A stretch of 64,000 bases of DNA from NCBI GenBank assembly GCA_949710005.1, contig OX453277.1, positions 12,352,678-12,416,677 of the forward strand, written 5' to 3'. The first letter of the stretch is position 1; each line of letters opens with the position of its first letter. A program made the position numbers and the translations under genes. Positions 14,571 through 39,370 of this stretch are shown here, piece after piece. Below the pieces are notes generated by a model. It did not search any database. It was given only the letters and a program-made list of their open reading frames with translations, and was not told where the DNA came from. The stretch is from Ricordea florida (lineage: Eukaryota > Cnidaria > Anthozoa > Corallimorpharia > Ricordeidae).

Positions 14571-14691
14571 CAACATGTCCTCGAGGCTGGAATTACGATT
14601 ATCGTAAAATATAAATTAGGCGTCAATTTATGATAATCACTATTTCATGACACTGGAAAGATAACAGAGTGAAGACTAGGTTCCAATGCTG
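14571..14691 (+). repeat. Left TIR of the giant transposon, probable promoter
   Basis: This 121-bp repeat is identical base for base to the inverse of 39250-39370. It contains TATAAAT at 14610-14616 and a 13-base palindrome TACGATTATCGTA at 14594-14606, a candidate transposase-binding site. The transposase ATG lies 12 bases beyond its inner edge. I infer that it holds the core promoter and 5' leader. Confidence 0.85.
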
Positions 14692-14703
14692 ATTTGATTC
14701 AAG

Positions 14704-17700
14704 ATGGAGGACGAACACGGTAAGAATCTGTATCACTTTGCAATGATTCCTTTTATTCTTTATGTTTTATCCTTTCGATTTTTTGTATGTCATCTAGCCA
14801 TGTATCATTAAAAGTTTATATCAAATTCTGTAATCACTTTTCTCACAATCAATCGACTTTTTAGAATTTGACAGGGAGCAGTGTCACTCGACTCAGCGAC
14901 ATCAAAGGCGACGGAAAGAGAAGCTTCCTGCAATGAGCAGTCTCATCATGCAAAGTAAGGCCTTATTGTCAAAGAAAAGAAAAGCCAGGTACCTGGAGTT
15001 CAGTAATGATCCTGTCACTGGACGAAGAAACTGCAAGGGTACCTATTCACCCTCAAGAACACGAAAGCGTTGCGCCACCGCCACGAATCAAAATGCCAAT
15101 CTAGATGCAGGAGAAATTGGTACGTTAACTGAAATTTTATAAGCTCAACTGTATGATGTTCGCTATATAACCTTCCAGCTTGTCAATGTGATTTTCATGC
15201 CAATCAGTAAATATTGTGTCGGCAAATTCTTTATTAAATTTCCAACCATACCTGATCGAGGCTACAAGGATTAATACCAGCAGATAAAACCTGACGTTAC
15301 TGATCGAACTGTTCGTTTGATGAGTTCCAATTTTTGAGAGAGAGAGAGCTCGATTGCGTTCGATTTCCGAACTATTCGAACCCAATGACACTTAATCGAA
15401 CACAATTAAGGGAAAATCTCGGCAAAATCCACCCAAAATACCACCGGATATTTGAACAGTCTGTCTGAGTAGTAATAGCTACCAAGAATAAACCGAGTAT
15501 AAAATCGTGCCACTCCATTTTGTGACTTGTTTTTATCATCCTACGGAGTCCCGCATTGTCTGCATAGCTGGCAACTTTGTGGGAAAGCATGCATACAATA
15601 TTATAGTCCAGTTACCAGTGAGATTACTGCAAAGACTCGCCTCCTCTCATTCCCCATGTGACTTTTCCATTGCTTTTAGCAGCCTGCTTGCTGCTCATTC
15701 GCACACTCCCCAACATACCCCTGTTTCCAGGCAAATGCAATCTAACCGTGAAAGTCGACTGTTGTTTTCCAGTCAACATCCAGCCTCAAATTTAACACAA
15801 TTCAACCAAATTGAACCAGTAGAACTTGATCAAGCCCAATCAAATGCAATCAAATGTTCAATCAGTTTCAATTTATCAAACATTTTTGTGGGGGTTGGAT
15901 ACTGTTCGATTATCATACTCACTTGAACCCAATATTTGCATGATTGTGTTCAATAAAGTTCAATTGAGTTTTATAATTCCTGCTTTCAATTTGGTTTGAT
16001 TAGTAAATTCTGGATTAAAAACGTCTAAAGTTCTGCAGAGTTATCTCTCCCTTTGTTCACTTTTCTTTCCCTTTTTTGTATTCCAGTCCTGTGAATAATA
16101 ATAATAATATTAATAATAATAATAGTTATTATAGTAATAATAATAATAATTATTATTTTTATTATATTTATAATAATAATAATTCTGTTATAATAATATT
16201 GTTCTTAGGGATAGAACTATGCAGTGAAGATTTATCAGATGGTGCTCCTGAAATATCAACAATTACAAGTATACCTTAATTCTTTTTACAGTGTCCAGTG
16301 TACTTTGTTATATTATACTTACTTATTTTATATTTAAATTCACGTTTGCTGAAAGTGGGCTGAACAGTTTCTAACCTTTGGGGTACCTTCCCTTCATTTT
16401 GCTTTTACATTCAAACTATTGCAGCTGCAGCCTCAAAACTAACAGGTTACAAGATAAGCTTTGGCATTTTGGTATTTTTGTTTTACCAAAGAGCATTTTG
16501 CATTATCATAGCAAACCAGGTAATTTAATTTGATTTGATTCTGCTCAATTTTAGAAAATTCAGTTAATTAGTAGATTTTTCTTTATTTATGTACAACAAA
16601 GTTTGAAAATCTCTGATGTTTTAGCATTAATATAATAAAGCTCTAACAGAGGGAACTTAGCCAATGCAATTTGCTACATATCTGTAATCAGCTATATACG
16701 CTAGATTGCATATGAGGGTACCTGATATTTTGACGTTTTCTTTGATCTTCAATTTAAGATTTAACAGTCAAAGTTCACTGTCATAGCACATGAAATAAAA
16801 ACTAAAATTATGCAGTTATATCTTCTACAGCTTTATTTTCTTTTCTCTCTCTCTCTCTCTTTTTTTTTTCATTTTCAGATAAAATGACAGATATCTTGCT
16901 TGAGGCAAAGGATCTATTGTCCTCAGAGGACAAAAGTTTTGTTAAAAAATCCCAAAGGTGGGAAGATAGAGTATCTATTTCTAATGAAAGTTGGGCAGAT
17001 TCACGTACTGCCCTTTGTGAAACACTGTTAAAAGCAAGATTTGCTGTAAGGGATGCAGCAAACTGCATGAAATGTCTCAAAGAAACAGCAGTCCTTAGAT
17101 GTCATGAGTGTCCTTCCACTAAATACTTGTGTGGATCCTGTGACAAGAACCTCCATGAAGTGTTTCCATTTCATGACAGAGATGCCATTGTTAATGAGCA
17201 CTATCAACCAATTCCACCAACCCTGTCAATGAATAGCAGTGGAGAATGGGTTACAATTGGTATGTGATTTAATTTTTAAACCATCTAATAGCTATCCTTT
17301 TAACATAGCAATTACCTTGAAGTGAACTATATATTCATATTTGGTGACAAAACACTAATATTTTTTACATCAAACTTGTTGTCACATTGATGTTTTTACT
17401 TGGTTAATAATAACCATAACAGTAAAAATAATGATAGTGATAATAATAATAATAATAATAATAATAACAGTAATAATAATAATTATTATTATATAAGTAA
17501 TAATAATAGTATTTTATACAATAAAAATATTTCCTAGAGAAAGCGAAAAAGGAATTAATTTATTAAAATAATTGAACACAGCTTTCATTATTATTTACAT
17601 GAACATTAATTCTTTCAATTTACTACCTCTTGGTTGAGTAATGATTTGTATAACCTATGCAAATATGTGTCATGAGTTAATTACCTAACTTTTATTTACA

Positions 17701-20700
17701 ACACTGCTTTATCAGTAACAGGATATCTTGCCTTTGGTAACCACTTCTAAATACTCATGAAGCTGTGTTGCCCAAAATTATTAATCCATTTATAAATTTA
17801 TCCATTTTAACAATGTGTGTTTTAAAAATGCCTGTTTTTTAGTGAGGCAACTCCCACATTCAGAAATTTTCTGCCCTGCATGTGGTGGAAAATGTAAGCC
17901 CCTGGTAAATCAGCAAGAACATCACTGCATTGCTGTTTCTTTCAGAGGTCAGTAACATTTTAATTTTTTGCTTTATTTTTCTACCAGATGGTTACTCAAA
18001 AGTGATCTAAAAATTTATTTTGTGCAAATACTTGCATAATTCAAGTAATCGTTTTTACGAAATGATGTGTGCAATCGCTATGTAAGATCCTTTTTTTGTT
18101 TAACAGATGCCATGTGTACATTTCTACCTCATGCCCTTAAAATAGATCCATGTTACATGTGGTCATGTTACTGTTAAATTATACAACTTCGGAAGGGGTT
18201 TTGGGTGGGCTTATAAGCGGGTGAGCTTATAAGCGGAATAAAAAAAATGTTTCGAAACGAGCCACAGTAGTGTTGATTGAAGTACGTTTTTAAGTTGAAA
18301 AGTCATAATGAAGCAACATTTAGCCCTGTTCAGTACTGTCATCCAGCAGAGGGGGGCTTATATCCAGGGGGGGCTTATGACAGGATGTATTGTATTGTTT
18401 CCAGGTAGATGGGCCTATAACCGGGGGATCTTTTAAGCGGGGAGGCTTATAACCGGAATTTTACAGTATTCCGTGGAAGTAATGAAGAAATTAAATATAT
18501 TAATATTATGATTTCTCATTAGGACGATTTGATCTCAATCATGGAGGCTACCAGTGTCTGGATTGCCAGAAAGTTTGTAGCACATCTAATCCATTGGTGA
18601 TTAGTCAGCTGGGATTCTGGCCAGGGAGTATAAGTGATACGACATACATCTTCCATCAGGACCTGTTCCTTCATTGGAATATTCTGCAAAAACAAATGCC
18701 TGGTGTTTCCGAGAGGTCTTTTGTTAAGTCACTAGAGCTTTTCTCAACGCGAAAAGGAAGAGTACGTGTGTCAACATATATTACCTTTGGGTTCTTGTTT
18801 TTCCACAGGATGTGTAATGTTGCATACTGGATGACCTGCGTGTATATATGCTCTCTGGCATACCCACTATATAGGACATTTTCTTATGTAAAGTTTTGAA
18901 AATTGAAGAACAAGAATTATACTTTTTTTTTCACTTAGCTACACTGTAGTTAGAAATTATTCAACTAGAGAGTTTAGTTAAGAGACCTTTGCATTTACTA
19001 TGGAGAGACTTTCATTGCTTCAATTTGATGCCTGTGACTAGCATGTCCTGATAAATGTTGGTAAACCCAATATTAAATTTTCTTCTTGTAGTTGAAACAG
19101 CCTTCTTACATGTACATTGTATCTACTAATTATCACAGCTTGGAACAATAAATATCACCGCATTTGCCACTTCTTTCAAGGAGTGGAAATTCTGCCAGTA
19201 TGAGCTTGATCTTAGTGGGAGACAAATCAACTGGATGGAGTGTCCAGCATGTGACACCCAGCAGCATTCTGTTCATGTGGATGGCAACATGAAGTTGTAT
19301 AGGTTCAAATCTGCTGGTGTGTAAGTAAATATCATTGCTGTTGCCCTGCTGTGGGAAATTATGTGCATGTATTCTTTTCATCTCTTCCTTTTGCAAAGTT
19401 ATAACTTGGATGGAAATTTTAATGTTTCATTTATTGGCTTCACAAAACATACATGTATTTTTCTAAATATTTTTGTGTGCCTAATAATCTGTCGTTATTG
19501 ATGTTTCACTATGCTTACACGACATGTTTTTTCTTGCAAAAAATGATGATGTCCCAATTTTCTTTGTTAGGAGTAAAAGAGAGTGTTACTATGGAGAGAT
19601 GTTCATAGCTTCAAATTCAAAAGTTGACAGTCATATTCATAAAGTTTACCAAGGTGTCAAGCACAGTGTGAGTTTATTTGTTTTTAAAACTAAAAGCCAA
19701 CATCAGATTGGGCAATTACCTTGTTAAGTGTGACATAGAGAATCAAAGGAAACAGGGAAGAAATGCAGAATTGAGTTTATCTTTGCTAAGAAGAAATTGC
19801 ATGAATAATCTAGATAACAAATAAGATATTAAGTGTATTATTTGTTGTTAATTGCAATTGTATCGATGTCAACTGCTTGCTATTTTAATCTACAAGGCTA
19901 ATAGTTGATCTGAATTTATTTTTTCATATGAAATAAGCCCTTCAGTTTAAGAAATGTTTATTGAGTTGCCATTTGAGCATATCAAACAAATTCTCCAAAA
20001 TAAAGCAAACTAAAAATATAGAAGAACAGCGGAATTTTTGGTAAAAAAAGATCACACTACACACTTTATGTTGCAGAAAGACAACCAGCAAAAACTCTGT
20101 GGTGATTCAAGCTGGCATGCAGCAGGCAACTCAGTACAGAAAAAGAAGAACCTCAGTGAGACAGGACTAGAGATTGCTGGCTGTAGACATGCTGTTGCCC
20201 AACATGCCATCAATATGATGTATGGCGAACTGTATGGCTATGCACACTACATGCAACAAAACTACTTCATACCGAGGAATGTTAAATTTCTTTGGTATGA
20301 TGTCGTGTGCAAATATTGGCCATGGCTCAAAAAGCAGAACAAAGAGTTTTCCGAGAGAATGAAACCTGCTTTGTCCATCATGCATGCAAAGGCCCATGCT
20401 TGGTATTGTCAGGTTGGCACAGTTAGTAGTTATGTGAAAATTGCTTTATTTAAATTGTGATAAGTGTTCTTGTGATTGCATAGTAATGTTGGTTGGTCAG
20501 TGTGTATGTTTCTGATATTTCATTTAAAATTTTTCTACACAAATTGTATTTTCCTATGTCCACCACACATGCGCAATCTTCCTGTTTTTAAGAGCTTGCA
20601 TGTTTTGGTGTAACTCTGCCACTGCCCGGTTCCAAGCCCACGATGTGAAAGGAGGAGGCCAAGTTAACTTAACTTTACGATTTAACTTTACTTTGCCATT

Positions 20701-23700
20701 TTTTACAGTCCATGCTGCAGACATGTGATGAAAAAGAAACCATTGGTAATGGTTAGTTGTTAATATTCACGGCAAATGCCGGCGAAAAAAAACCCGTAAC
20801 GTGTAATAAATAGTTCGTCCTTAGTTCCTCATCGTGATATACGTAATATCAATTGTTGATAAACGCCTCAATATAGATAATTTCTTTATTGTTGCATCAC
20901 CCAGATAAAATGTTAATGTGGCTAGCTTTCTTTGAATTTCAGGTTCAGTGGGGAGGAAGATGGCAAGATGAAGCGGGTGCAACAACTGGCGAGGAAGTTG
21001 AACAGATTAACAGCCACTTCTCGCCGCTCGGCAATTCCACCAAGCACATGCTTCCAGAAGGTAACATTTTAGTCTATTTCTCAGGAATACTATGGAATTA
21101 TGTTGCACAACTTACAGCATATGACATACCGTTGTTTTTCGGTTACATTCGATATGAGGAACACTTGTGAACTTCATCATATCAGACTTTATAATGGACT
21201 TTTACTATAGTATTTATTGTATGCTTGGAGTATCTAATTTTTTTTTTCATTATAGGGAGAGAAGAATTACTTACCGAGCATGCTCTTGAGTGGAATAGAC
21301 GGAAAGTTGAAGGGCTTCCGCAGTCTCTGGCAAAGCGTTACAAAAAGGTTTGCATATTGATTACATCCATTTGGTTTTACTCAGTGAAGTATTTTTTATG
21401 CGGTAAGGACATTTCTTTAACTTGTTAACTGCACCCGTTTTACTTTACCTTTTCTACCATGATCCTTTTTTAATTTTAACAGATCCAGAGTCAGCTTAAG
21501 AAGGCATGTCTTGACCTCGATGAGTTGTTAAAGGGACTTCATCAAAACACAGAATGCCTTGAGAAGTGGAAAACCGATGTACTTCAGTTTGCTCAAGGTC
21601 AGTTGTTGCGCTAACTTGTTGTACTTTTTAATCTGCCGTATATTAAAAAAAAACATTCAGCTGGGTTGTGTTGAATACAGCAAATAATTCCGAGATATTG
21701 CGTAGAATAAACACTGTACCTTAACGTGAGATTTAGTAGCAATTCTTTAATAATCCGTACTTTTTTTACTTAGAGGAAGAAAGTTTGAGGAACAGAAAGG
21801 AGCATATGTCGCCGCAAGAAGAAACCTATCTGTGTCATTTAATTTCACAGGAAAGGCTAACACCAAAGCAGCAACTTCTCTTTGAAGCTGCGCAACAGCT
21901 GTACGGGAAAAAGGTGAAGGAATTGTCCGCCACAACAGACACGAACTTCGAGGCAGGCGCAAGTGTCCTAAAAAAGAAGACCTTGTCCCATTTTCGGAAG
22001 CACATGGAACATTGTCATTTTTCGATATCGCATTTTTCTTTGAACATGGGGAAACTAACAGGTGCAGAAAAGACGTTTTTGATTTTTTTGACTCAACTTG
22101 TAGTGTACCATTGCCGTGGATAACATGCCGCGGATTGCAGTTAGTATACAGTGTTAGAAGTTATTACAGTAAATTATAGTAAAGGTGTTTACTTTTTGTT
22201 ACAAGTCTAGCTTGGGCCACACGTTGTATCATTGTACAACAGATGTCGCTCCGACAATGTTGGAACGTGTAGCACCCGTACTGGATGATGTTATTCCAAC
22301 ATTTTTGTCAAAAGTGTTTTGATTGCGAATAAACATTTCGCCGAACATAAATCAATGCCGGAAGGTTTAGCCGGCTTTTCACTTGAATAATGTCGCATGC
22401 CAACGACCAGTCCGTTTAAGCACCCAGTCCCCAAGCCGACAACATTGGCTCTTCAATATAGTAGATCAAGTAGTCGAATAAGGAGCGCATAGCTTTGTCA
22501 CACGTGCACCTTATCATATCCGACATTTGTTTTATAACAATGTTGGAGACGTCTTACAACAATATTGAAAGGAAAAGCCCCTCCTTAAGTTGTTGTTTTC
22601 ATTTTCAGATTCCTCCAAGCAGCGAACGCGGCTTCGTAAGAAAATCTCCACGGAGAAAGCTGATCTCGAAAAAACAATCTGCAAATACAACCAACTTGTA
22701 ACAGACCACCCCATCCGCAAGGAAGACATCGAAAAAGGTCATTTCCCATGGAGTGAGAGTTCATCTGACGCAGGTACTGCGTACTGTCGCACCAGTATGA
22801 AGCCTTTATTAAGTAGTAACCTTGGCTATTAAACTACCGCGGCTGTTTTCTAGCTGTTTTTATCTGAGTCAAATGGTGACTTCATAAAAAGAAGCAATGC
22901 TAATAATTGTACCCTGAATGCAAAGAGAAATATGAATATTTACAATACCTTTTAATCTTGTCGTGTTTTAGTTCCTGCCAGGACTAAGAGGCTAGCTGTA
23001 GACAAGCATATGGAGGTTCAAAGGTTCAAAGAAGAACTTAAGATTCTTGAGAATGAGATGCTCGTCTTTATGAAGTTCTACAAAGACAAGATGTTGCCAT
23101 CTCTACAGCTGCAGCGGCAAAAATTGCTTAATGGCTTGGAAGGTAGGTATTTCTAGCGTTGTCTAACATGATGTAACTTGCTGTAACCGAGAGTAGCTAT
23201 TAGCTATGACGCTACAGGTGAAGAAAAAATCAAACGTAATTGATGATATGATGACTTTAAATAATCTACAATAAAAAACGAAACTGAAAATAATAAGAAG
23301 TGGAAGAAAAAAATAAAAAATTAGCAGTTCCCTTTATTTTCCGTTTCTCGTCCTTCCCAAAAGGAGCTTAAAAAGCTCTCTCTTCTCTCGATTTAATGGA
23401 GAGCCTTTTCTGTCTGTAACGTGAAGATTTGAATGCATATGATTTCCAAGTCATTTAAAGAGTTATTAAGGGCGCCAAACACCCGCTCCCCCGCCTTCTT
23501 CGCGTGTCATTCATTAAAACTGTCGAAGAACGTTCAAAGAAGCAACTGTCTCTTTTAGATAGGTATCATTGTCACATCTGCAAATAACTTCATGTTTTGT
23601 CTTCCTTTTCAGATGATGACACCAGCGATGAAAGAATTAACAATATAGTAGGTTTTTTTATAATCTATTCATCTTGTGAGCCAAAATGTTGGTGTTGGCA

Positions 23701-24740
23701 ACTTCAGTTACTGAAATAGTTTTGTATTGCTATGTTTTATTCTGTAGGGCCGGCGTTACTTCTCAGCATCAACAGAGAAACAAGTGGTAGCTGGAAAGCT
23801 GGCTCTCATATCAGAGGGCATAGCTTTTGTCATGAAGCAGGTGGCAGCCGGCATTGTGGCCTTTGCACCTGTTCTTAATTGCGAACTAGACAGTTTTCGC
23901 GAAGTGCTCCTCACCCATCAATGTGACGAAGTCGAGAGTGACGAAGAATGTGTAGATGACGATGACAATGGCGACGGCGATGATGATGGCGATGATGATG
24001 GCGATAACGAAGTATTAGAGTGCGATGAGGAGGATTCCACCAGTGGTAGAAATTCTAAATCCGAATTTATTCTTGTTGCTTTACAGAAATTAACTGTTGA
24101 TTCTTCGGAGCCTGTTTCGGCTGAAGAGGTTCGACCTGGTGTGTCCTGCTGGCGCCTTCCAAGTGAGATAAGCCAGGGTCGTTACAAAGGGCGCAATGGA
24201 AGTAATGCCTGTAGTTTAATATCACTTATGATTGGATACGTGTTCCACAAAAACAAACCGCCAATTCCACTGCAACAAACCACCTTGTCTGACAACATCA
24301 TCGCTATTATATGCGGTTGCATGGAGCTTGGTAACCGAGTTTATGATTTGTGCCGACACAATTTACCTTCAAGATACCTTTCCATTCAAGAGGCTGCGAG
24401 TGTCTTGGACACTTGGCTTGATTGCTCTGTTGGAAAAGCATTACCAGTCCGATTACAAGATCCACACGAGATGTCTACTATTTGTGGTCAACTTAGTTTG
24501 GCCATGTCTTCCCAAGATGCTTCTGTTTCATTTCTCATAATGAATGAAAAAACATCGTTTTTCTTTACGACAACGAACGAAGTACTTTACCTAGATACTC
24601 ACAGCCATTCACCTCATGGTGCTGTTGCAATCGTTTCCACATTACCTTATATTGGTGAATTCTGTAATGCTGTGTGGAATCTTGAAGGACATAGCGAGAA
24701 CACATTTGGAAACTTGGCATTTGTTAATTTTCCAGTGTAG
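14704..24740 (+). CDS. KDZ transposase with C-terminal cysteine-peptidase-like domain (17 exons)
   Basis: Proposed exons: 14704-14719, 14865-15119, 16209-16268, 16879-17259, 17843-17947, 18523-18761, 19139-19320, 19571-19667, 20077-20412, 20943-21060, 21256-21347, 21483-21597, 21774-22061, 22609-22773, 22972-23142, 23613-23647 and 23748-24740. All junctions are GT-AG and phases agree, giving about 1215 aa. Domains: basic N-terminus; B-box-like zinc cluster (C173, C176, C185, C188, C195, C198, H203, H209); further CxxC pairs at 248-285; RNase H-like KDZ core with likely catalytic D400 (HVDGNMKL), D520 (WYDVVCKY) and E577 (GEEVEQ); coiled-coil-rich 600-870; acidic 946-981. The C-terminal domain has NAC (C1040) and LDTHSHSPHGA (D1168, H1170). 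It would excise and integrate the element in the nucleus. Exon 14 could instead end at 22737. Confidence 0.88.
16086..16200. repeat. AAT/ATT microsatellite in intron 2 of the transposase gene
   Basis: Runs of AAT and ATT units ending just before the exon 3 acceptor at 16207-16208. A second AAT array lies in intron 4 at about 17434-17505. Confidence 0.85.
18185..18470. repeat. MITE-like GCTTATAAGCGG repeat in intron 5
   Basis: Several copies of GGGCTTATAAGCGG/GGCTTATAACCGG motifs in both halves of a 285-bp segment suggest a dispersed element within the intron between exons 5 and 6. No clean TIR or target duplication was seen. Confidence 0.45.
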
Positions 24741-25904
24741 CTGTTCAATTAAGTTATACCTTAAAATCCTCAAATGCAGTCGGCTGTATGTTTTGTTCTT
24801 GAGAACTGCCGCACAGAATATTATAAAAGAAAAAATTGTAACCACGGTATACCGTAGACCATGTCATGCTACGCTGTATTCGCAACGTACTCGTTGACGA
24901 AAGTGGCGATAGCTTCTAAAATGAAACGAGCAATACTCTGAACGGATCAGATATGAGTAGCTTTCCAGTTCCACCTGTGCATGTTTCACCCATCCACTAG
25001 TTTAACAACTGAAAGATGCTAAAAGTTTTTTTTAAATAGCCGGAATAGATTAGACTAGTGTAGACAAACTTTCTTTAGAATCTGGAGTGGTTGCCCATTC
25101 TCCCGAGCCTGGATCTCGAGTTAAAAACTCACAGCTCGTTACATTAAAAACATTACTACTTTCATAGAGGTCTTCAATAAGGACAACCTTGCGTTATTGA
25201 TCTTTACAATTGACAGCTCAAGTGCGGGAATGAAAAATATGAAAATTAATTAAAAATCAAATAGAAGTAACGATTGTTTCAGTTATATGAAAATATATAA
25301 GAGAGATTTAAAAAAGTCAGTTGGCTTGCTGGATACGTGTAGCTTGGTTGATCACAACGCTGCCATATGAGTGGTATTAAATGACGATCATTGGTTGAAT
25401 TTCGTTCAAGCCTGAATATCTGTAAGGCTCTATTTTTTACTACTGCTGACCTATGTATACATGTACAAATGCAATTATCTTTCTTATATTAAAATCTTCA
25501 TTCTATTGTTCAAAATACGAATTTTGATATTTCCTGTTACAATTAAAATAAACCTGAACACGCCCAACACCTTGCAAAATTTTTAAAGCTCTTGTAATAT
25601 ATTACATCACAGAAATGCCAAAATTGCACCACGTACATCACACGAAAGCCAGTTAAATGGCCATTTACGAAAATAAACTATTCCACAAGCCACGCTTGCT
25701 TTCCATCCTATTTTCTTAACTATCTCAACACAATTTCAATCTGAGACGCGAGGCGAATATTTAAAAACAACGCCTGGTAAGTCAAGTTTATCCCAGGATA
25801 TTCTCAAAGTCTCGCGTTTTTTCTTGATTTCGCGAGATAAAATCAAAAATCGATGATCTTTGGATGTCGCAAGTCTCAACAATATTGCATTAATAGATTG
25901 GATT
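24741..25904. other. Noncoding interval after the transposase gene
   Basis: This holds the presumed 3' UTR and AT-rich spacer inside the giant element. I see no gene. Confidence 0.5.
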
Positions 25905-27800
25905 GTCATGATTTACCCCGTTTTTCTTGAATTCGGTAACAAAAACAATGGAAAATGGGAGTGAACATTGAATATCGCTAATTCAAATACATTGCATTTA
26001 ATTTGAAGGCTGGAGTGCCCGAATTTACACCGTTTATAAGGAACAGTTCGCTGACCACAAAATAAATCGAACATCAGTGTAAGGATTGGATATAGCAACC
26101 TGGGACATATCGCATTCGTAGGGTACATTGTCACAATTCACCCAGTTTTTCTTGAATAGTTCGCCGATCACAATATAAATGGAAAATCGGGGTGAAGATT
26201 GGCTATAGCAAGTTGGGACATACATCATTTATAGGTGACACTGTCAGAATTCACCCCGTTTCCCTTGGATAATTAGCCGATCACAATATAAATGGAACAT
26301 CGGGGTGAAGATTGAAAATAGCAAGTTGGGACAAATTGCATTTGTGCGGTACATTGTCAGAATTCACCCCGTTTTTCTTGAATAATTCGCCGATCGCAAA
26401 ATAAATGGAAAATCGGGGTGAAGATTGGAAGTAGAAGGTTGGGACACAATGCATTTGTGCGGTACATTGTCAGAATTCACCCCGTTTTTCTTTAATAACT
26501 CGTCAATTACAATGTAAATGGAAAAACGGGGTGAAGATTGGAAATAGCAAGTTGCGGCTCATTGCATTTTTGGGGTACATAGTCAGATTTTACCCCGTTT
26601 TTCTTGAATAATTCGCCGATCGCAAAATAAATGGAAAATCGGGGTAAAGATTGGAAATAGCAAGTTGGGACACATTGCATTTGTGGGGTACATAGTCAGA
26701 ATTCATCCCGTTTTTCTTGAATAATTCGCCGATCGCAAAAAAAATGGAAAATCGGGTTGAAGATTGGAAGTAGCAAGTTGGGACACAATGCATTTGTGCG
26801 GTACATTGTCAGAATTCACCCCGTTTTTCTTTAATAACTCGTCAATTACAATGTAAATGGAAAAACGGGGTGAAGATTGGAAATAGCAAGTTGGGACAAA
26901 TTGCATTTGTGGGGTACATAGTCAGATTTTACCCCGTTTTTCTTGAATAATTCGCCGATCGCAAAATAAATGGAAAATCGGGGTGAAGATTGGAAGTAGC
27001 AAGTTGGGACAAATTGCATTTGTGCGGTACATAGTCAGAATTCACCCCGTTTTTCTTTAATAACTCCTCAAACACAATGTAAATGGAAAAACGGGGTGAA
27101 GATTGGCTATAGCAAGTTGGGACACATTGCATTTGTAGGGTAAATTGTCAGAATTCATCCGTTTTTCTTTAATAACTCGTCAATTACAATGTAAATGGAA
27201 AAACGGGGTGAAGATTGGAAATAGCAAGTTGCGACACTGCATTTGTGGGGTACATAGTCAGATTTTACCCCGTTTTTCTTGAATAATTCGCCGATCGCAA
27301 AATAAATGGAAAATCGGGGTGAAGATTGGAAATAGCAAGTTGCGACACATTGCATTTGTGGGGTACATAGTCAGATTTTACCCCGTTTTTCTTTAAGAAC
27401 TCGTCAATTACAATGTAAATGGAAAAACGGGGTGAAGATTGGAAATAGCAAGTTGGAACAAATTGCATTTGCGCGGTACATTGTCAGAATTCACCCTGTT
27501 TTTCTTTAATAACTCCTCAAACACAATGTAAATGGAAAATCGGGGTGAAGATTGGATATACAAAGGGGGGATATATTATGTTAGTAGGTTAGATTTTCAG
27601 AGTTTACCCCGCTTTTAGCGAACAAGTCGCCGATCACAAAATAAATGTGGGGTCGGGGTAAGGATTGGATATAGTAAGTTTGGACATATCGCGTTTGTAG
27701 GTAAGATTGTCCGAAATCTCCCCGTTTTTTTCTTGAATAATTCGCCGATCAAAAAAAAAAAGTGGAAATCGGGTTGAACATTGAATATCGAAAATTGGGA
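25905..27800. repeat. Tandem satellite, about 113-bp unit, about 16 copies, inside the transposon
   Basis: Successive units show TCAGAATTCACCCCGTTTTT, TTCGCCGATCGCAAAATAAA, CGGGGTGAAGATTGG, AAATAGCAAGTTGGGAC and CATTTGTGCGGTACA, spaced about 113 bp apart. Two unit types alternate in the middle (a TTCGCCGATCGC type and a CTCGTCAATTACAATG type), giving a 226-bp higher-order period. Every unit has a built-in dyad: CACCCCGTTTTTC against GAAAAACGGGGTG. The outer units are more diverged. Minus-strand frames of about 67 codons recur with the period and are repeat by-products. Confidence 0.92.
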
Positions 27801-27804: not shown

Positions 27805-28175
27805 TTAAGCGCCCCTATTCCAATAAGCGCCCCCTTTTTTACAAGCGCCCCCATTCCCCATTCTTGCCACTGAAGTCATCGACGTCGAATAGAGATACTC
27901 ATGAACATTCACCGTACTGTACATGTATATTTGTAACTGCTAAAATGAACAATTCTTTTAAAAGTAACTGAACTTTCAACAATTTGTTACTATTACAGTT
28001 TCTGTTATTGTTAGTTATTTTCATATTTATTGAAGTTTCGTTCTTGAACATTTGGTTGTTTTCCAATAAATTAATTAAGCGCCCTGTCCCGAATAAGCGC
28101 CCTGTCTCGAATTAGCGCCCTCCCTTGAGGTGCCAAAGGTAAATAAGTTCCCCGGGCGCTAAATCGAATCATTAC
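27805..28175. repeat. AAGCGCCC-bounded repeat segment
   Basis: Clusters of AAGCGCCC motifs at 27808-27850 and 28078-28125, with the inverse GGGCGCTAAA near 28154, bracket about 350 bp. It looks like a MITE-type element; the exact ends are unclear. Confidence 0.4.
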
Positions 28176-28786: not shown

Positions 28787-31744
28787 ATGTTCCGAAGAAA
28801 TCGTGGTAATTTTCCTTCGAAGGTAAGGTTACTCCCCGAAAACAGATAGAGAGATGAGCGCGCCATGCAGTGCTAAATCATTCTTAATTTTGGCACATTT
28901 GGACTTAACAAAATTACAAAATTGCTTTGGCACGGTTTTCCACGCTCGTGCAATTTTCAGAATCCAGGAATTCGAGTAATAATTGTGATTCTTGATATTA
29001 AAAGGAAACCAAATTGTACACTAAAGGAATACTCATGAAATTAGGAAATAATTTGACTCATGGTATTTTATTTCAAAGTTATAATAATCGAATGTTTAAT
29101 CTGATAAATTGCACGTGCACAATATGAAGCCATTTGATTAGTCGTCACTATTAGGTTAAATAATATAATGAGTTTAATTTTGGCGCTAAATTTAACAAAT
29201 TGACCTCCGTTATTTATGCGTCTGTCCTCTTATTGATGATAAATTGCGTCATAACATTGTCAAAGTGTTGTAGATCCACGAGCCGATAGGCGAGTGGATC
29301 TACAACAAACTTTGACAATGTTATGACGCAATTTATCATCAATAAGAGGACAGACGCATAAGAAACTGACGTCAATTTGTTTTTTACAATAACAAAACGC
29401 GAAAAAGGTCAAATGAAGCCTTAAAGGAAAAGAAAACGCAAGTAAACAGCAAGTAAACTCGAAAAATGCTGAATTTTATTTAAATTGACGCAATCAGGGT
29501 GCAACTATTCTCAATAACTTTTCTTGCCTTCTTATTGGCTTGTGACAACACGTAATACAATTTGATTGGGTAAAAATCTGACTGTTTGACAGCTCACTTA
29601 TCACGCGAAAAAACCTTGCATAAATTAAAATTTTATGTGTCTGTACTCTTATTGATGATAAAAATTAGCCAATCAGCGCGCGAGAATTCGCTCAGTTATT
29701 GTAAAATCTATGATTTCACATGTGTTTACGTGAAGGACAGGTGTGGGGTGGGAAAGAGGCAAGGGTACCCCAACTAAGTGAGCATCCCACCTAACCAATC
29801 TACCCTGGTTGACCAACTTTTGCATACATTCTGTAAGAAAAACCTGTGTACATGTGAGACAGGCCAGGTAGCCTGGGTAGCCTGGCCAGCCAAGGCAGTA
29901 AGACACTACCTCTCAACCTCCATTTTCATTCGCCCACTGTAAACACTACCTCTACTGTTATTCAGGGCTAGGGGCATTGTTATGACCTGTTATCTATTGT
30001 TTTTAGAACCAATGAAGTAACTCGTTCTGAAAGGTAGTGGGCGACCCAGCCAAGGCACCCTGTCTGCTTGTTTATTTGTACCACAATTCTATGTGGGCTA
30101 TCAGAATAAGGAAAAATTCAGAGACAGACCATTATTTTTTTTTTTGAGCGGGTGGGGGAATCTTGGCAAGGTAGTTTTTCCTCTTCAGGATGTGCAACAT
30201 TTTTTTTATTGGCCACTTGGTTAATGTTTTTCCCTATGGCTCCCCTTTGGCATGATTGTGTTCAGCCTTTTTCCTGTGCAGGAATTTTTTTTGGAAATTG
30301 CTCATACCTCCCCCCCCCCCCCCCTCCAAGACATAATGGAAATCAATTATTGTGTGCTTTCTGGCACAGGCATACATCCATGAAAAGACACTGATTAGAA
30401 AACATATTCTTAATTTCAGTTACAATTTTGGAGAAGAGTTTTTTGTGTTTTGCAGAATATGAAAATTACTGCTAAAATATAATCTATTCCAAAAGAAACA
30501 TGACAAATTCAAAAGGATAATGACTTGTTTTCTGAGTATGTGTAGAACTTTTGTCAACCAAACCTTGAGGTAAAACCATGAGGTCTTACTTAAGTATGTC
30601 AACTTTAGGGGAGGTTGGATTAATTGTCAGTACACATAGAGTTTGTTGTTCAAATTTTTAACTTCATGGGAAAATTGTTTAGTGGGCTGGAGTTAAATAC
30701 ATTTGCCATTTTTTTTTCATAACGGTTTTTTTTTTTAAAAATTGTCCAGTGCTGTCACTGACACTGATAATTATTTTTGTAATAACTTTTCAGGGCAAAA
30801 GTGGTGTTTGTCGAATTCAAGGCTGTCCACAAATGGGAAAAATGCTCAAGAGACTCGACAATCACCTTTCAAGGTGCCACCAAGGGGTGACAAGAGCAAT
30901 GAATGATCGACAGCCACATTTTGCATCACAATCTAGGTCACGTGTTACTTGCATGTTGCCTGGTTGTGGAAAAGAGGTCCTGCACTTATCCAAACACCTC
31001 AAAAACATCCATGCAATGAGTGCCACTGACTATCTTGCAAAGGTGGAAGAAGAGAGAGAAAGTCAGGGAAAAAGAAAAAGTCCTTCCAAGTACCACACAA
31101 ACATAGATAAAACAAATGAGACTAAGAAAATAAAAAATGACGAAAGTGTTCATGATAAAGAGACAACTGGGATGGGCTTTGAACCTGTTCCAGAAAGTGA
31201 CTTGAGTGAAACTTCCACTGTGCAGGACAGTCCAGATGTCTTCAGAACTGAAGATAAGGATCCAGAGACAACTGGGATGGTTTTTGAAGCAGTTCCAGAA
31301 AGTGATTCAAGTGTACTAGATTTCACTGAACAAGAAAGACCAGATGTCTTAAGAAGTGAAGATAAGGATGCAGTTCATTGCGAACCAAGTAAACTGGTTT
31401 TAGAAGAGTTAAATCCTGATACATATTCAAGGGAAAAACTCAGATACCTTGTGCACAACACATCACCTGATGGTGTACGTTTCCTGCTTGTGTATGTAAA
31501 AAGAAAAGGAGGTTTGGCAGACTTTCATAGGTCAAAACTCTGTACAGACATTCTTGGAAATATGCCTTTTTCCACAGTGAAAGAAATTTACCTCTACCGG
31601 AAGTACCTGACAAGTTTTTATCGGTTGGCCAGGTTCTACCCATATCCTGATAAAGAGATGATAAATAGTTGCTTGGCCTGTGATGTGATGGGGAAAGGAC
31701 AATGTTCAGGTCCCGTTCTTCCAAAGTCTTTATATTTTTTGTAG
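28787..31744 (+). CDS. C2H2 zinc-finger protein carried by the giant transposon (2 exons)
   Basis: Proposed exons are 28787-28822 and 30794-31744, joined by a phase-0 GT-AG intron (AAG|gtaagg ... ttttcag|GGC), giving about 328 aa. Two zinc fingers lie near the N-terminus: C18-x4-C23-x12-H36-x4-H41, and a second with MLPGCGKEVLHLSKHLKNIH. An acidic, Ser/Thr-rich middle contains two copies of a TTGM(G/V)FE-VPESD block. A conserved-looking C-terminal part (LRYLVHNTSPDGVRFLLVYV onward) has no function I recognize. After a six-T run at 31735-31740 the frame ends, yet the next frame (31743-31904) encodes two C-x5-C-x2-C clusters. A one-base indel may therefore have cut off about 50 residues. It is probably a DNA-binding cargo or accessory protein (inference). 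Confidence 0.7.
29194..29383. mobile_element. Near-perfect 190-bp palindrome (foldback MITE)
   Basis: Arms of about 88 bp (TTATGCGTCTGTCCTCTTAT outward, GTTGTAGATCCAC inward) flank a loop of about 14 bases centred at 29287. It lies in the intron of the zinc-finger gene. A related ACTCTTATTGATGATAAAA half-site recurs at about 29643-29663. Confidence 0.85.
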
Positions 31745-31904
31745 ACAAAAATGCTCAAGTGACTTAAATTGTAAGAAATGTATTTATTTTGATCACAGAC
31801 CATCTCATTGTTTTGATTTTTTTCACTGCAAACGATGTGATGAGGACTACAAAGCATCCACAAGACATCAGCCGTACCCACAGATTAACAATGGTGCAAA
31901 TTAA

Positions 31905-32460
31905 ACAACACATTTTATAATTTAATATTGTTATTATTATTGCTATTTTTATTCAACATTCCAAAATCTGTACTCATAATTTACTCTGTATGCTTATTAC
32001 AGAAACAAAAGTCAGACTCCCCACTCAGGTATTTATTATGTAACAACTCCAATATTTCTGTATAAACAGAGGATATTACTTGGCCACACAGTAATAGTGC
32101 TATAAGCATGTATAGAGGGTAGGAAATTGATAAAAACTGCTATCCCACTGTTATACACTTGTTTTATATCATGGTTACATCGTGTGATATCATTTTTATC
32201 AATTTGCTATCACTTGACATACCATGAAAGTTTTATATTACAATAAATAGAAATATCACAAGTAATTAATGCAAAATATCCAGAATCCAAAAAGGTTTCC
32301 TGAAAGGTTGGAAACAAACCTCTAGATACCACTTTCAAAACCTCTTGGATTTTGATTGGTGTAAGTAGAACAGAGCATATTATGTTTCAGAACAATGAAC
32401 CTAGTGTAATGAATATCTTTTATTAAGGCACTCAAGAAAAGTTTGTCTAAGTATTCATTA
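31905..32460. other. Noncoding interval
   Basis: Presumed 3' end of the zinc-finger gene and spacer. An inverted motif (CCTAGTGTAATGAATA at about 32399) pairs with TATTCATTACACTAGG at about 33051; the Penelope fragment sits between these arms. Confidence 0.45.
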
Positions 32461-33046
32461 GAAATTGGATAAATCAAACGAGTTGATTAAGTAAGTTATA
32501 CCACCGTAAGGTGAATGGGAGGTACTGACAATTCGAGCGTTAGCCCTTCGTCGGAGCGAATGAGAGGATTGTGGGTTACGTACAATTTATATAGAGAAGT
32601 TTGGAGCCATGCTATCGGTGGAACCATAGCAATGTGTGAATGGAAGTGAATAAATTAGATGAATGATTAAATGAATGAGAAACGTTCGTTGATACCGTGG
32701 GGATTAAGAGAACCGAGTTGGAATATAAACTTCTGTTCTAGGTTTTTACGGCTTTCCGTGTTGCCCTGATGCACGGAAAGGCCACATACTGCCATGTTGT
32801 GAGTTGAGTGGTTAGGTAGATTAAAGTGTCACGCTACAGGTTTCGATGCATCTTTGTCATCTCGTTCGACGTCACGCAGATGTTCGCGGAAACGGTCACC
32901 TAATCTCCTTCCGGTCTCGCCGATGTATATCTTCTTGCATAAGGTGCATTTTATGCAATAGATAACATTGGCAGAAATGCATGTGAAACGGTCTGTGATT
33001 TTAAACGATCGTTTAGGTCCTGCTATTTTGTCTGTGTTGTAGATGA
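32461..33046 (-). mobile_element. Penelope-like element, 5'-truncated, GIY-YIG endonuclease end
   Basis: The minus strand from 33046 to 32667 encodes a GIY-YIG-type nuclease end, with VIYCIKCTLCKKIYIGETGR followed by RLGDRFREHL, then the conserved tail LGSLNPHGINERFSFI and a stop. One TGA interrupts it after KPVA. The insert is flanked by an exact 13-bp duplication, TAAGTATTCATTA, at 32448-32460 and 33047-33059. The 3' end carries the terminal motif (GTTAGCCCTTCGTCGGAGCG) seen also at 6040 and 53115. The nuclease would nick target DNA for priming; this copy is dead on arrival (reverse transcriptase missing). Confidence 0.85.
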
Positions 33047-33256
33047 TAAGTATTCATTACACTAGGCTCGTGGTTCTGAATTCAAAGTCTGTTCCTCAAG
33101 GGGAACGCTGAGGTAACTGCCTCCATGTAGTTCTAACTATTTACTATACTTTTATCTTTGTTCATATATTGTATTTACCAGTACCATATGTGTCTTTTTT
33201 ATGTGGACTTGCAAATCAGAATAAATCAAAAAGGTGTACATGACAGTGTACATCAA

Positions 33257-36200
33257 CTACTTCCTGTAAACATAGGGTGTCAATGCTAATGATTTATTGG
33301 CTAACAGCCTTGCTGTCATCAAACACTTAGCAGGTAATGCAAAAAACTTTCCCTTCTCCAGAAATGAGTTTTCAGACTCATCCCCAAGAATGAGTGGTGC
33401 CTCATGGTTTGGTTTGGTGGTTGTGATCATAACGCAGTGATGGTCTGGGGGGATTCTAAAACCATGAATGTTTTCTCTTTGAGGTTGAACATGACCTCCT
33501 GCAACAATGGTACCATTAAGAACATACACCACCATATCTCCTACAACAAAAATATGTGCACATATCAGTATTCATATCTGTATCAGTGCAATTAATGTGA
33601 ATAAGGGGAAGCAGTGTTGAGGCCTAAAGAGAAAAGAAATAAAAATGGCTGTGAACAGACCATCTCTGTATATTTAACAGTTATATTTCCACAAGTGTGC
33701 ATTGGACATGAGATGGTAGATAGCCAACGAGGCACGTTAAGCGCCAAGTTGCCTATAACAATCTAATATCCAACAAGCACAAGTGGAATAATTGTTTTAT
33801 TAAAAACACCCAAAAGAATTTCAATATTTGAGCTCCCCAGCTGTTTTTGTTCATGCGCATCAGTTCCTGTTCACAGAGGTTGTTCATTTGCTCTCAACCT
33901 CTCACTTTATTATTTTTGTGTAGTATGTAGTGGATCATATACCTGATTGAGGTGTCAATGAAATTGGTGATGCTATATCTTCCAGGCTGTTGGATTCCAG
34001 GTGTGATTCTTTATTACCTGCATTAGGTAAAATATGAACCACATTTTACAATAACAAGGCAATAAGCGCAATTTTAAATTCATGTAAAGAGCTCATGAAC
34101 AAAAGCATAGTCACTATGTCCATTCTACAGTATGGTCTCTACAAATTTAAAAATGATTCAGGTATGCAGACCACTTCTGTTAAACTTGTCCATAATTATT
34201 CCCTGCATGCCTAGACATCTTAATCACCAGCTACACATTAAGAAGGTGCTGCAGAATAAAAACCACCCCTAGCTATACACTTTAATTTCAATAAAGCTTG
34301 AATAGTTGAAAACAGTGTTCTTTCCATTTCTTTAATTACAGTAATACAACTCCGCAGGGGCAAGTTTAACAATTATTAGTCATATGATTAACAGTTGCAA
34401 ATGGGTTATTCATAAACAGTTTTTGCTATCAAGTTCTCACTTTGATAATTTTTTAATGTAGTATATTGTGGATCATATACCTGGTTGAGGTGTTGATGAA
34501 CTTGTTGGCATTACATCTGTTACCCCTTCACGGCTGTTGAATTCCTGGCCTGATACGTTACCTAATATATATATTTATATATAACTAATTAACTGGAGAC
34601 AGTACTGTTTCGGCATTCTGGGCCTCATAAGTGCAGTGCTGATGCTAGGATGGAGGTTGAGCTATAAAGCCACCCCAAATGATCCCACACATGGTATCAT
34701 CTAAGCCATGAGTGCTCAAACTAGTAAAACTAGTGAGCATATAATTTCAATTTCATGAAAAGTAAACACTGTCCAGCCATAGAATTATCACTACCAATTT
34801 GGAATGATTCAGATATGCAGACAGCACAATGGTGTTTGTCAAAGCTGTACAGGGGCGTAGCCAGGACGATCCCTGAGGTGTTCTTGATTCCCTCCTTTGT
34901 GATATAATGTTTTAATTAAACAACATACAAACCTAATAATTCAGGTGGCTAAAAAGTGTGAATCAGGAGAATCAACATGCCATAAATTGTTTGTAGTGCT
35001 AGTTAGTTACATACTCCATTTTCAGGACCAACCATCTGCAGTGGACTACGTAAGTACCCTGGGTGTGAAAGTGTGACCATGCACTTTTTTGAAAACTCCT
35101 TACCTAGCTATGCCCCTACTATAATATGTACCTTAAGCAACTAGAGGAATAAATTGCTACTCTTCCTGTATGATGAGATGCTTCTCCATGGCAGGTGACC
35201 CCCCCCCCCCCCAAGCATTTTGTCAGGTATCTTTGACAGTTTGCTGGTTAAGCCATTTATACAGCTACTACATTAAAGCTCTTAATCTGCCTAGAAAGCT
35301 ATAACCATCAACTAGGCAATGCATCTCCCAAAAAAAGTATACTCATAGCAAATACCCAGAGTTAACCCTTCACCTTGCAGAGTGGAGGAACAGTAAAGTT
35401 GTCATTATTAATATTGTTAAAAAATTATTATACATCTAAATTTTACATCTTATTTGTACAAGCTACAATCCACATAAAGCAGCTTGGATACATTTCCCGT
35501 GAATAAAACAAATAAAAATAATAGCAGAAAAGAAGAGCAAAATACATGTACAAACCATTTTCGTGGGGCATGGCAACCTCCTTATTGCCCTTGTCTGACT
35601 TGAGTGACTTGAGATCTATGCACACACACACAAAATGCACAATTATTTAAAAATATATTTAGTAGAAAGTAAAAAAAGAGAGAAAAAAAAGCAGTTAACT
35701 GCATGTATTGAAGCTTAAGGTCCCCTATACGTTTTAATGAAGTGTGATTGGGGTTATATATTTTTCTGTGAAACATTTCGTGCTTCGTGATTTCCAATTT
35801 CAGTATCGTTTCTTTACCTGCACATGAAATATGCACTTTTTAACTTAAACCTGACCATGCGTGAATAAAGAATTGAATTAGATGTGATTCATGAATCATC
35901 TTGTTTTGTGTGAGTAGTAAATGTATGTCTTTGTTTTCCGCTCTGTGGTTGGGTTTTTTTGAACACAAAACTTTTGTGAGCAAAATCAAGATGTGATACT
36001 TTTGCAACACAAATTTCAGCAGTTTTAGGCCTTCAGAGCGCAACAGTTTGAACAGGGATCGCCTTGATTTTTGCATGAATGTGATAATATCTTGGTTATT
36101 ATTCATGACGCATGATAATTAAGGCCTAACATTTTTACGTTATTACATTTAACAAAGGGGTATAAAGGACGCTCTGTATTTTCTTATTTTCTTAATTTTC

Positions 36201-39200
36201 TTTAATTGAATATTTAAAGCTACAAGGTAAAATATAAATAAAACCATACTTTTGTTCTCTTTTCCAAAGTATTACTATGCACTTTGACTCATTTTTTGAC
36301 AGTCAGTGAGATAATACAGATATAATGATGACCATGCAATTTTCTCCTTTTCATGGCCCAGTTGTTCAAAAACTGTATACCATCCAGTGGATAAGAAACT
36401 TTCTTTTCTTATCCCTTTACCACTGGATAGCAATTATTTATAGCACGGATTTATCTTGTGAATAGGGTTATTCACACTTTGATAAACTGGGGCTAGTTGT
36501 ATTATTTTGTTTGTAAATATAATTTTTGATTATACCCTCCATAAACTTTCGAAAAAGTCTAACAGCCATTGCACCGCCATCTGATGTTTTAACATCACTT
36601 TTGTTTCCTATGAATGAGACACCTTCTCCCTCTGTTCCATAAAAAGTGACGGTTTCACCACTTGCATACTTGTGGCACATCATGATGACAACATGGCAAT
36701 CATGATTATAGTGAAGGATGTCTGCCTGCAATGACAAGCATATGTACAAGAAAAGCAATATACATACTGAATTGTGTTAAAAAACACAAATTTTAATATG
36801 AAAAATATGATTTTTCAAAAACAATAAGTATAATTATAATATACAGTTAATAATTATATAATAAACACCAACAAAAAACAATACCTCCATAGCAATAATT
36901 AATGAAATGATATACAGATGCTATAATATGGCCAACAGTATGCAAAAGAGCATTGCCCACACATTTGTTGAGTGCTACTGTTTAAAGTTTTTCTTCAAAA
37001 TTATACTTTATGTAATGTTTAATAAATGAGCAGCAGTGTTTTATCAAGTTTAAAACATGAGGCACAGCCGAGTGTTTTAGACTTGATAAATTATGAAATG
37101 CGAATTTATTGAATGGCTTCAAACTCTTCTGATGTAGATCAACTCATTCTTGTACTAATATTTAGATTTGAGGTTATTTTGGCCCAGAAAATTGAACGTA
37201 AAATTCAGCCATGTCTTTATCAGATATAAAGACACTCATTAATAATTACTCATTACTATTAATGAGTTTCTGAATATATATTGTATCATCTCACAGTGCA
37301 GAGTCATTTCAGCACTGGGTAAAACACCAACTAGGCAGGGAGCAACCAGTTCTCTAAGTCTAGCAGGCAGCTGGGAACCTCAACAAGATGCGGAGGCCAG
37401 GACTGCTGTCTTCTGGATAGCGTCACTAAGGCACTCGCTCTCAATGCCTAGATGTTTATTATTTATTTTATTGAACTACTTCAATAGCTAAATAATGCCA
37501 ATGTTCTTCCCTTGTATGTTATTTTCTTTCTGGATTTACCATAAAGGCCTGGCTGTCACATAGTCCAAAACAGAAAACAATAAACAAAGAAGTTTGATCA
37601 AAAGACAAAAAGCTACTTAATTTTATCATCTCTGTATAATAAATACTTAATTGGCTACATAGTGCTAATTTTAATGTAAAAAAGACAAAACAGTAATAGA
37701 TGGGCAGAAATCATTGTGAGTTTAAATATTTTGAAAATTATTATGATTAAATATCATTACGAAACAAATAAACATGTTACAGTGAGATAAACACATTGAA
37801 TTAACTCACCCGTTTTTCCAGAAGTCTTTTTTGCTGAGTGATGTTTGTTTTTAAGTTTTTCAGTTTGTCAACATCCTTGAGCCGTTTCGGAAATGGTGTC
37901 TCACATTCCCCACATATCTTTGCAGCTATTGGCTGTTCTTCTGAACAGTAGGAGCACCTCTGGATTACAAAAAATAAATAATTTAACAAAATAAAGCAAC
38001 CATAAATTTTACTTAGGACCTAATGAATGCTCTTTTGGGCTACATCACGGGCATTTCACAGATTTTTGGTCTAATCTGTTCTGAAATTAGTGGTTAAGGT
38101 AACTTAACCCAAGGAAGACATAATTCCCTAACTTTGTGGATAGAAATCAAACTCAAACTATAAATATTGATTTTCAACAATAACGCTCGGATGAAAAAAA
38201 AATTTAAGTTGCAATCCATTTCCATCCAAGCCATCAGCAGGAAAGCTGCTTGCTGACAGTTTCAGTGCTCTTATATAGCAATTATTGTTAATAAAAATGA
38301 GCATTATGAGCGTTAACTATAAATTTTAGCTGTTTGGAAATCTGTCAAAATCCGTGACAAAGGTGCAATCATTATACTGGAGTAATTTTCTAATATTTCA
38401 TTAGAAATATGAGCTGGGAAAACCTTTGGCAGTCCAGACTTATGATGTGAGATGTAGTCACCATCAATTTATTCAGATCATTAGTGCCACTTGCCTTATA
38501 ACCTTTCCTCCCTTTTGCTTGTGAGTTATCTATGGGACAAGTGCACATTTAAGAACCATTTTTATTCACATTTCTAATTTTGCCTTATGTCTATAGTTAT
38601 AACATTGCAGCCATAATTAAAGATTCTACTGTAAAGCGCAACCAAACTTATTCAGTGGATTATTCACACGCCAAACGTGTCACAAGTAAGATTCTAAAAC
38701 ATTACATCAATTTAAAAAGGACAGCCTTAGTATACATATCCGCTTTTTTTGGCTGCTTGGATTGTCAAATAATTTGAGTGATGGGCTGATAGGCTCTTAC
38801 AAGTTCCTAGTAAAGCTACGCGTAATCATTTATAAGCTTAAATTTGTTCAGATTTGTTTGCCATATTTACTACGTACAGCGCACCGCGTAGCGAATATAT
38901 ACACATTGTAAAGCAGTAAAGGAAGCTTTCCCGCGACGTATCCTAGGAGTTGGAGTGCCAGGGTATTCCGTAGTTTAGCTAGCCAACTTAATGACTGAGT
39001 AGCTATACTGGTATGGCAAGCATTCAAACTGTTCGCAGTGAAGCAACATTTGAATTAAACTAAAACCCCTGGGAGCAACTCTGTGAATGAACGTGATCCA
39101 TAAACGGTTCATTAGCTTAAAATAAAAGAGCATGCGTGAACATAAATTAAAACAAGCAATTATTCAATAGAAAACACTAAGAAAATTATAAAACACTTAC

Positions 39201-39207
39201 CAGCCAT
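33257..39207 (-). CDS. Zinc-ribbon protein of unknown function, right-end gene of the giant transposon (8 exons)
   Basis: Proposed exons on the minus strand: 39207-39201, 38785-38736, 37959-37810, 36725-36536, 35615-35556, 34561-34481, 34017-33943 and 33540-33257. All junctions are GT-AG and in phase, giving 298 aa and a TAG stop. ATG is 42 bases inside the right TIR. A zinc ribbon (C21-x2-C24-x10-C35-x2-C38) is followed by a Lys-rich helix, then a conserved-looking block with HDCHVVIMMCHKYASG (exon 4). A Ser/Pro-rich linker encoded by three small phase-1 exons leads to the C-terminal domain (GDMVVYVLNGTIVAGGHV...). Exons 6 and 7 are similar to each other. The shortest exons (1 and 2) are the least certain. 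No family recognized; it may assist transposition or alter host defence (inference). Confidence 0.68.
36361..36440. mobile_element. Short TIR element in intron 4 of the zinc-ribbon gene
   Basis: ATCCAGTGGATAAGAAA and TTATCCCTTTACCACTGGAT pair across an 80-bp segment. It is probably a small MITE. Confidence 0.5.
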
Positions 39208-39249
39208 GCTTGACCTTCTTTTGTTTTTCGCGGGAAACGCATCGACCCG

Positions 39250-39370
39250 CAGCATTGGAACCTAGTCTTCACTCTGTTATCTTTCCAGTGTCATGAAATA
39301 GTGATTATCATAAATTGACGCCTAATTTATATTTTACGATAATCGTAATTCCAGCCTCGAGGACATGTTG
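39250..39370 (-). repeat. Right TIR of the giant transposon, probable promoter
   Basis: Exact inverse of 14571-14691. The TATAAAT box maps to 39325-39331 on the minus strand, upstream of the zinc-ribbon gene start at 39207. TATATAC follows at 39371-39377. Confidence 0.88.

Follow-up and report, generated by a model that had tools for sequence, protein, structure and literature searches.

In this study, we show that the window, by which we mean the whole 64-kb stretch of DNA analysed (C6:12352678-12416677 of the host genome), contains an element of 24,800 bp that begins with CAACATG, ends with CATGTTG and carries three genes between terminal inverted repeats. Comparison within the window gives two arms of 121 nt each that are 100% complementary and separated by 24,558 nt, in line with the identical 121-bp repeats of the original prediction. 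Moreover, TATATAC, which had been noted at both ends, forms a 7-bp direct repeat on either flank, the left junction reading TATATAC followed by CAACATG and the right junction CATGTTG followed by TATATAC. The features of the element are the following.

14564..14570, target-site duplication, left copy, TATATAC
14571..14691, plus strand, left terminal inverted repeat; starts CAACATG, with 12 bp from its inner end to the transposase ATG
14704..24740, plus strand, transposase gene of 17 exons and 1215 aa; CxC3 (PF18804), then KDZ (PF18758); conserved D400, D520 and E574
23748..24740, plus strand, exon 17 of the transposase gene; acidic linker and C-terminal domain with a predicted viral tegument-like deubiquitinase fold
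25995..27760, 113-bp units repeated in tandem
28787..31744, plus strand, gene 2 in two exons (28787-28822 and 30794-31744); encodes a zinc-finger-like protein of 328 aa in this copy, which has lost the C-terminal cysteine cluster
33257..39242, minus strand, gene 3, 7 exons, 309 aa, no internal stop
39250..39370, minus strand, right terminal inverted repeat; without a single difference from the left one, with 7 bp from its inner end to the gene 3 ATG
39371..39377, target-site duplication, right copy, TATATAC

An 8-bp reading of the duplication (GTATATAC) arises because the final base of the right repeat by chance equals the left flank, and it was dropped for 7 bp on the evidence of other copies. 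Immediately outside the left 7-bp duplication lies a 65-bp inverted-repeat element (14490-14554, CAACCTCG...CGAGGTTG), itself flanked by a 9-bp direct repeat, AACATACTG (14481-14489 and 14555-14563), the opening bases of which element resemble those of the KDZ element. At the Rfam gathering cut-offs there was no match anywhere in the 64-kb window.

The transposase gene is unbroken over its 17 exons, as had been claimed: all 16 introns are GT-AG, every phase fits, and the 1215 codons are free of stops. Two domains exceed the Pfam cut-off of 26.6 bits, CxC3 on the frame of exon 6 (66.1 bits) and KDZ on the frame of exon 9 (57.7 bits), and KDZ continues on the exon 10 frame below the cut-off. D400 and E574 are present in all 12 aligned transposase sequences, D520 in 10 of the 12 (the remaining two being gapped there), and E575, which adjoins E574, in 11 of the 12; we take D400, D520 and E574 to be the catalytic D, D and E residues of the KDZ transposase. 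Thirteen protein relatives were found, the best being from Nematostella vectensis (45% over 98% of the length). Eleven of them are anthozoan (Nematostella, Dendronephthya, Paramuricea, Desmophyllum and Acropora), and the remaining two are one EukProt protein and one from a fish. It is from protein relatives of this kind that the host is taken to be a cnidarian. The KDZ domain, the CxC cluster, the D/D/E residues and the inverted repeats with their target duplication, all of them found here, support membership of the KDZ superfamily as judged from the sequence.

The two other genes that had been placed between the repeats are gene 2 on the plus strand and gene 3 on the minus strand. The exons of gene 3 (39242-39201, 37959-37810, 36725-36488, 35615-35556, 34561-34481, 34017-33943 and 33540-33257) encode a protein with three relatives, one of Acropora muricata (43% over 99%) and two of Dendronephthya; zf-tcix matches were weak and below the cut-off in both gene 3 relatives scanned with Pfam. 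A small exon of this gene lies within a duplicated stretch (33908-33980 and 34446-34518, 78%), both copies of which are of phase 1-1.

By eye, gene 2 encodes two C2H2-like fingers. Counterparts of its first exon are present in Nematostella P0035 and Montipora P0027, and the Nematostella relative reaches 25.8 bits for ROS_MUCR in Pfam against a cut-off of 25.4, the window protein falling below it. A frameshift near 31.73 kb ends the window frame at 31742-31744. Among 24 relatives of gene 2, all nine that were aligned continue in frame through the cysteine cluster and past the window's stop, while P0019, outside the alignment, has a different ending just before that point. An intron as the cause of the short form was rejected, as the relatives read through and splicing the lone short candidate, inspected by eye, leaves the frame broken. 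The description of the element as apparently intact therefore holds for the transposase frame but not for gene 2, which is truncated where the nine aligned relatives read further. The first intron of gene 2 contains a near-perfect palindromic repeat (29194-29381, 73-bp arms, 95%), and a GIY-YIG fragment lies inside the transposon near the gene 2 end (32832-33053), which we presume is perhaps part of a Penelope-like element.

Copies in the host genome and their age

A search of the host genome (537.8 Mb, 48 contigs) for further pairs of the terminal repeat, suggested with the original prediction as a check on it, returned 31 repeat matches, which exceeds chance, many of them as convergent pairs. 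Large convergent pairs occur at five places including the window, and two further copies are damaged.

C6:12.37 Mb, large convergent pair, the window copy, 24.8 kb
C13:13.64 Mb, large convergent pair, 25.3 kb
C6:11.69 Mb, large convergent pair, 27.1 kb; left repeat without its first 3 bp
C2:39.36 Mb, large convergent pair, 34.7 kb
C16:3.23 Mb, large convergent pair, 41.4 kb; outer repeats perfect, 7-bp duplication exact
C16:19.8 Mb, damaged copy, about 45 kb; both ends eroded
C8:1.14 Mb, damaged copy; left end missing

In addition, C7:30506283-30515930 holds two identical left ends with an assembly gap (a run of N) directly before the second, and could represent either two copies or a duplication introduced by the assembly.

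The 7-bp duplications were compared for seven repeat pairs, five large and two short. They match at 7/7 positions in six pairs and at 6/7 in the C13 pair, while 42 mismatched flank pairings reach at most 4/7. Counting every pair with both outer ends (the gap-adjoining ends on C7 excluded), seven of eight have the duplication, and in the eighth, a 2.3-kb pair at C6:34.346 Mb, the flanks do not match. The flanks of the C7:30.506/30.542-Mb ends, which have the gap between them, do not match either, possibly because the gap hides two copies.

Since these repeats also bound short elements (2.2, 3.0 and 7.9 kb) and a gap is present at another copy (C7:30.51 Mb), the two repeats of the window could have come from separate shorter elements or from an assembly join, and could bracket unrelated DNA. 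We regard this as extremely improbable. The C13 copy, on another contig, aligns collinearly with the window from one terminal repeat to the other, in two blocks that overlap, and is flanked by a duplication of its own in which one base is mismatched, from which it follows that the window's two repeats belong together; separate insertions, named beforehand as the finding that would overturn the prediction, do not account for such a copy. The third exon of gene 3 (238 bp) points the same way. It was found at nine host places, all listed as 100% identical, two of them at slightly lower scores, and at all nine it lies about 2.6-3.0 kb inside a terminal repeat. On the evidence of these copies, what lies in the window is a member of a young multicopy transposon family and not two unrelated repeats.

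With genes and the 113-bp array excluded, divergence was compared in five large copies besides the window, some of them in part. It amounts to 0.04% (C8), 0.07% (C16:3.23) and 0.12% (C13), and to 0.41% (C6:11.69) and 0.45% (C2), which indicates that the family is young. Identity by itself cannot separate duplication or conversion from transposition, and a dead relic whose copies owe their likeness to segmental duplication or gene conversion would look similar in this respect. It is nevertheless very improbable as an account of the family, given that the copies lie on different contigs or at different places with flanks that differ by eye, that the five large two-ended copies each have a 7-bp duplication (one of them mismatched), and that three copies (window, C13 and C2) retain an open transposase frame. 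In the C6:11.69 copy, part of the transposase has been lost and one splice site has changed. The original reading, a giant KDZ transposon with several genes that was active recently in a cnidarian, thus stands, resting on near-identical host copies, the 7-bp duplications, and KDZ and CxC3 domains above their cut-offs.

Gene 2 varies among these copies. The long frame, with the final stop only, is found at C6:11.69, C7:30.13 and C7:30.53 Mb, and with one additional TGA in the matched stretch at C16:19.85 Mb; the frameshifted short frame is found in four of eight copies (window, C8, C13 and C16:3.24 Mb), and the C2:39.36-Mb copy lacks the gene. The short form has 0 differences across the window, C13, C16:3.23 and C8 over 1138 aligned positions, and these four copies therefore spread after the short form arose. 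At both termini, the elements of 2.2, 3.0 and 7.9 kb carry sequence derived from the gene 3 end (38.7-39.37 kb), oppositely oriented and about 88-91% identical, and they contain pieces of the 113-bp array; exact 7-bp duplications flank two of these elements. They resemble an earlier wave of derivatives that moved in trans.

It seems that Polinton/adintovirus-like DNA is extraordinarily abundant and young in the host genome: one Polinton ATPase query gave 5038 first-look candidates in 538 Mb, of which 150 were scored, all stop-free and at 93-100% identity. A nested Polinton is present in four of the seven transposon copies examined (C16:3.23, C2:39.36, C8 and C16:19.8), at insertion points that differ where located, and is absent from the window, C13 and C6:11.69 copies. 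The insert at C16:3.23 is 15-16 kb long with ATPase (Pox_A32) and integrase (rve) frames; those of the C2 and C8 copies are of similar size with relatives of both proteins, and similar-looking frames were seen by eye in the C16:19.8 copy. The C8 insert splits exon 17 at the Cys codon. The ATPases of the C8 and C2 inserts are 94% and 87.5% identical to that of C16:3.23, and because the insert proteins differ while the transposon copies barely do, the insertions were taken as separate. Polinton targeting of the element was considered and rejected: about 1.6 insertions are expected in 7 x 24.8 kb and P is about 0.08 for at least four, a rough figure in that one element per candidate is assumed and the unscored candidates may include fragments. 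As Polinton DNA is extremely common in the genome, no targeting is claimed.

The remainder of the window contains other repeats. On the minus strand, 51439-52029 holds a decayed Polinton-like ATPase that has internal stops and is 60.6% identical across 203 aligned residues, and a BEL/Pao retroelement frame at 814-3132 (772 aa) has Peptidase_A17, DUF5641 and integrase zinc-binding domains, with rve below the cut-off. A second element between inverted arms at 39.7 and 58.5 kb was discarded as a candidate, the span holding LHFPL- and receptor-like frames; the arms (39747-40034 and 58278-58522) are apparently a dispersed repeat, a similar stretch of which is found also in L052.

The C-terminal tail of the transposase

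The predicted deubiquitinase-like domain spans about residues 121-330 of exon 17. The fold used is the model built with alignment A1, which was compared with structure 8add (a single-sequence fold was discarded at pLDDT 38.5), and it corresponds to the tegument-deubiquitinase variant of the papain fold. The catalytic-residue match was judged from sequence. The putative catalytic C155, D283 and H285 of exon 17 (C1040, D1168 and H1170 of the transposase) are invariant in 6/6 sequences and are kept also in a host relative about 50% identical. The tail gave no match against Pfam and PDB sequences, and only 5 of the 13 protein relatives of the transposase reach this region.

The fold model together with the conserved residues predicts that the tail is a viral tegument-like deubiquitinase (VTD). 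It would then resemble the VTDs of Helitrons and herpesviruses in fold, in its catalytic Cys and in the Asp-x-His motif, the spacing from Cys to Asp being 128 here versus 129 in DrT1-VTD2 (C322, D451) (PMC9741609). It is unlikely, though a reasonable alternative, that the same tail belongs to the papain-like proteases without being a deubiquitinase, as a YopT/AvrPphB-like or UfSP-like enzyme. With the VTD assignment retained, the domain differs from the published VTDs in being carried by a cut-and-paste KDZ transposase, in contrast to the rolling-circle Helitron (PMC9741609). Cnidarian VTDs have been reported fused to several transposon-associated domains, and since the main text of that report names neither KDZ nor Zisupton, a KDZ-VTD fusion may be among the fusions counted there unnamed (PMC9741609).

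Gene 2 and its association with the transposase

A relative of gene 2 at 43% identity occurs four times at C2:13.18-13.40 Mb. Conserved gene order would place exon 17 a few kb upstream, and this prediction was tested in two of the four copies. In the first, the distance from gene 2 to a transposase tail of 49.7% identity (326 aa) is 5.6 kb, and in the second, where the tail is 49.4% identical (326 aa), it is 5.5 kb; both tails have the same orientation as in the window. We thus show that gene 2 is linked to a diverged transposase at both places tested on C2 and, as far as the compared sequences go, is an old partner of it. Another gene 2 relative, at C3:23.109 Mb, had no transposase within the 4 kb examined, and viral contigs scanned for relatives of gene 2 and the transposase yielded none. 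As a weak lead, the entries of the Nematostella gene 2 relative P0035 and of the transposase relative P0004 give an identical length for the longest contig.

It is conceivable, if doubtful, that genes 2 and 3 are captured host genes, true cargo standing outside the transposition machinery. The lineage spread even though four of its copies have a truncated gene 2, so the C-terminus of the gene 2 product is dispensable in cis; the C2:39.36 copy does without gene 2 altogether, and the relative at C3:23.1 Mb stands without a transposase in the piece examined. Against this, the order, strand and spacing of gene 2, about 5.5-6 kb behind exon 17, are kept beside transposases of about 50% identity at 2/2 places. 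Of the four copies aligned over the whole of gene 3, moreover, three are without any difference in the 930 coding bases and the fourth has one, and the 636 bases aligned in the C2 copy show 0 differences. The original term cargo-carrying undersells gene 2, which we prefer to regard as a transposase partner of old standing.

Relation to known elements and proposed mechanism

The original fish Zisupton is reportedly about 11 kb long with one gene. The element described here resembles Zisupton in having a KDZ-type transposase spread over many exons and terminal inverted repeats, and differs from it in size (24.8 kb, with three genes) and in its 7-bp duplications, as opposed to the 8-bp duplications of the Zisupton clade (PMC12730594). 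Pristionchus Zisupton has 18 to 31 exons (PMC9297572), and both Zisupton and Kyakuja are named for Chlamydomonas (PMC8226300). The 7-bp duplications and 5'-CA..TG-3' ends are shared with Kyakuja of fungi, whereas the Kyakuja families described in that source lack terminal inverted repeats, which are 121 bp here (PMC12730594). KDZ1 of Cryptococcus is similar in its KDZ core and long terminal inverted repeats (241 bp in KDZ1), and different in its length of about 11 kb, its 8-bp duplications and its CxC1 rather than CxC3 domain (PMC12810828). The combination of a 7-bp duplication with long terminal repeats thus blurs the dividing line between Zisupton and Kyakuja.

Giant KDZ elements are known already in algae and are not new in themselves, those of Ectocarpus reaching 30.3 kb and an active one of Chlamydomonas 31.7 kb (PMC12477816). 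They are comparable to the present element in size class, nested insertions and additional genes, and differ in their algal hosts and in that the passages available from the source name no deubiquitinase-like tail (PMC12477816). A likely KDZ transposase gene has been listed in the cnidarian Hydractinia (PMC9926710), and the giant animal elements named in the available part of another report, Teratorn and Polintons, are of other kinds (PMC6431247). Among the matches listed from the open-licence literature there was no description of the present family, which is weak evidence of absence.

Taken as a whole, the locus is very probably best explained as a 24.8-kb cut-and-paste KDZ transposon with a putative helper gene 2 and a predicted deubiquitinase-like tail. 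In the proposed mechanism, the 121-bp terminal repeats would be the sites where the transposase binds and cuts, insertion would create 7-bp target duplications, and each repeat would double as promoter and leader of the gene just inside it, namely the transposase gene on the left and gene 3 on the right. Gene 2 may act as a zinc-finger DNA-binding helper or regulator of long standing in the group. The deubiquitinase-like tail might remove ubiquitin from a host factor or from the transposase itself, so that the transposition complex would be spared degradation. Whether the system goes further is, in our estimate, evenly poised: a currently active animal cut-and-paste transposon whose transposase is fused to an active VTD would travel with its ancient zinc-finger partner, perhaps also with gene 3, as a multi-protein system that disarms the host ubiquitin system independently of Helitrons and herpesviruses, and copies of the 41.4-kb type might have moved with a virus-like Polinton inside.

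A young family of near-identical giant KDZ elements in an anthozoan-like genome offers a tractable animal case. If the prediction is true, the published idea that such domains spread by transposons would gain a second, unrelated transposition chemistry through the VTD tail of a cut-and-paste transposase, and the KDZ-VTD fusion would make it testable why mobile elements need ubiquitin cleavage.
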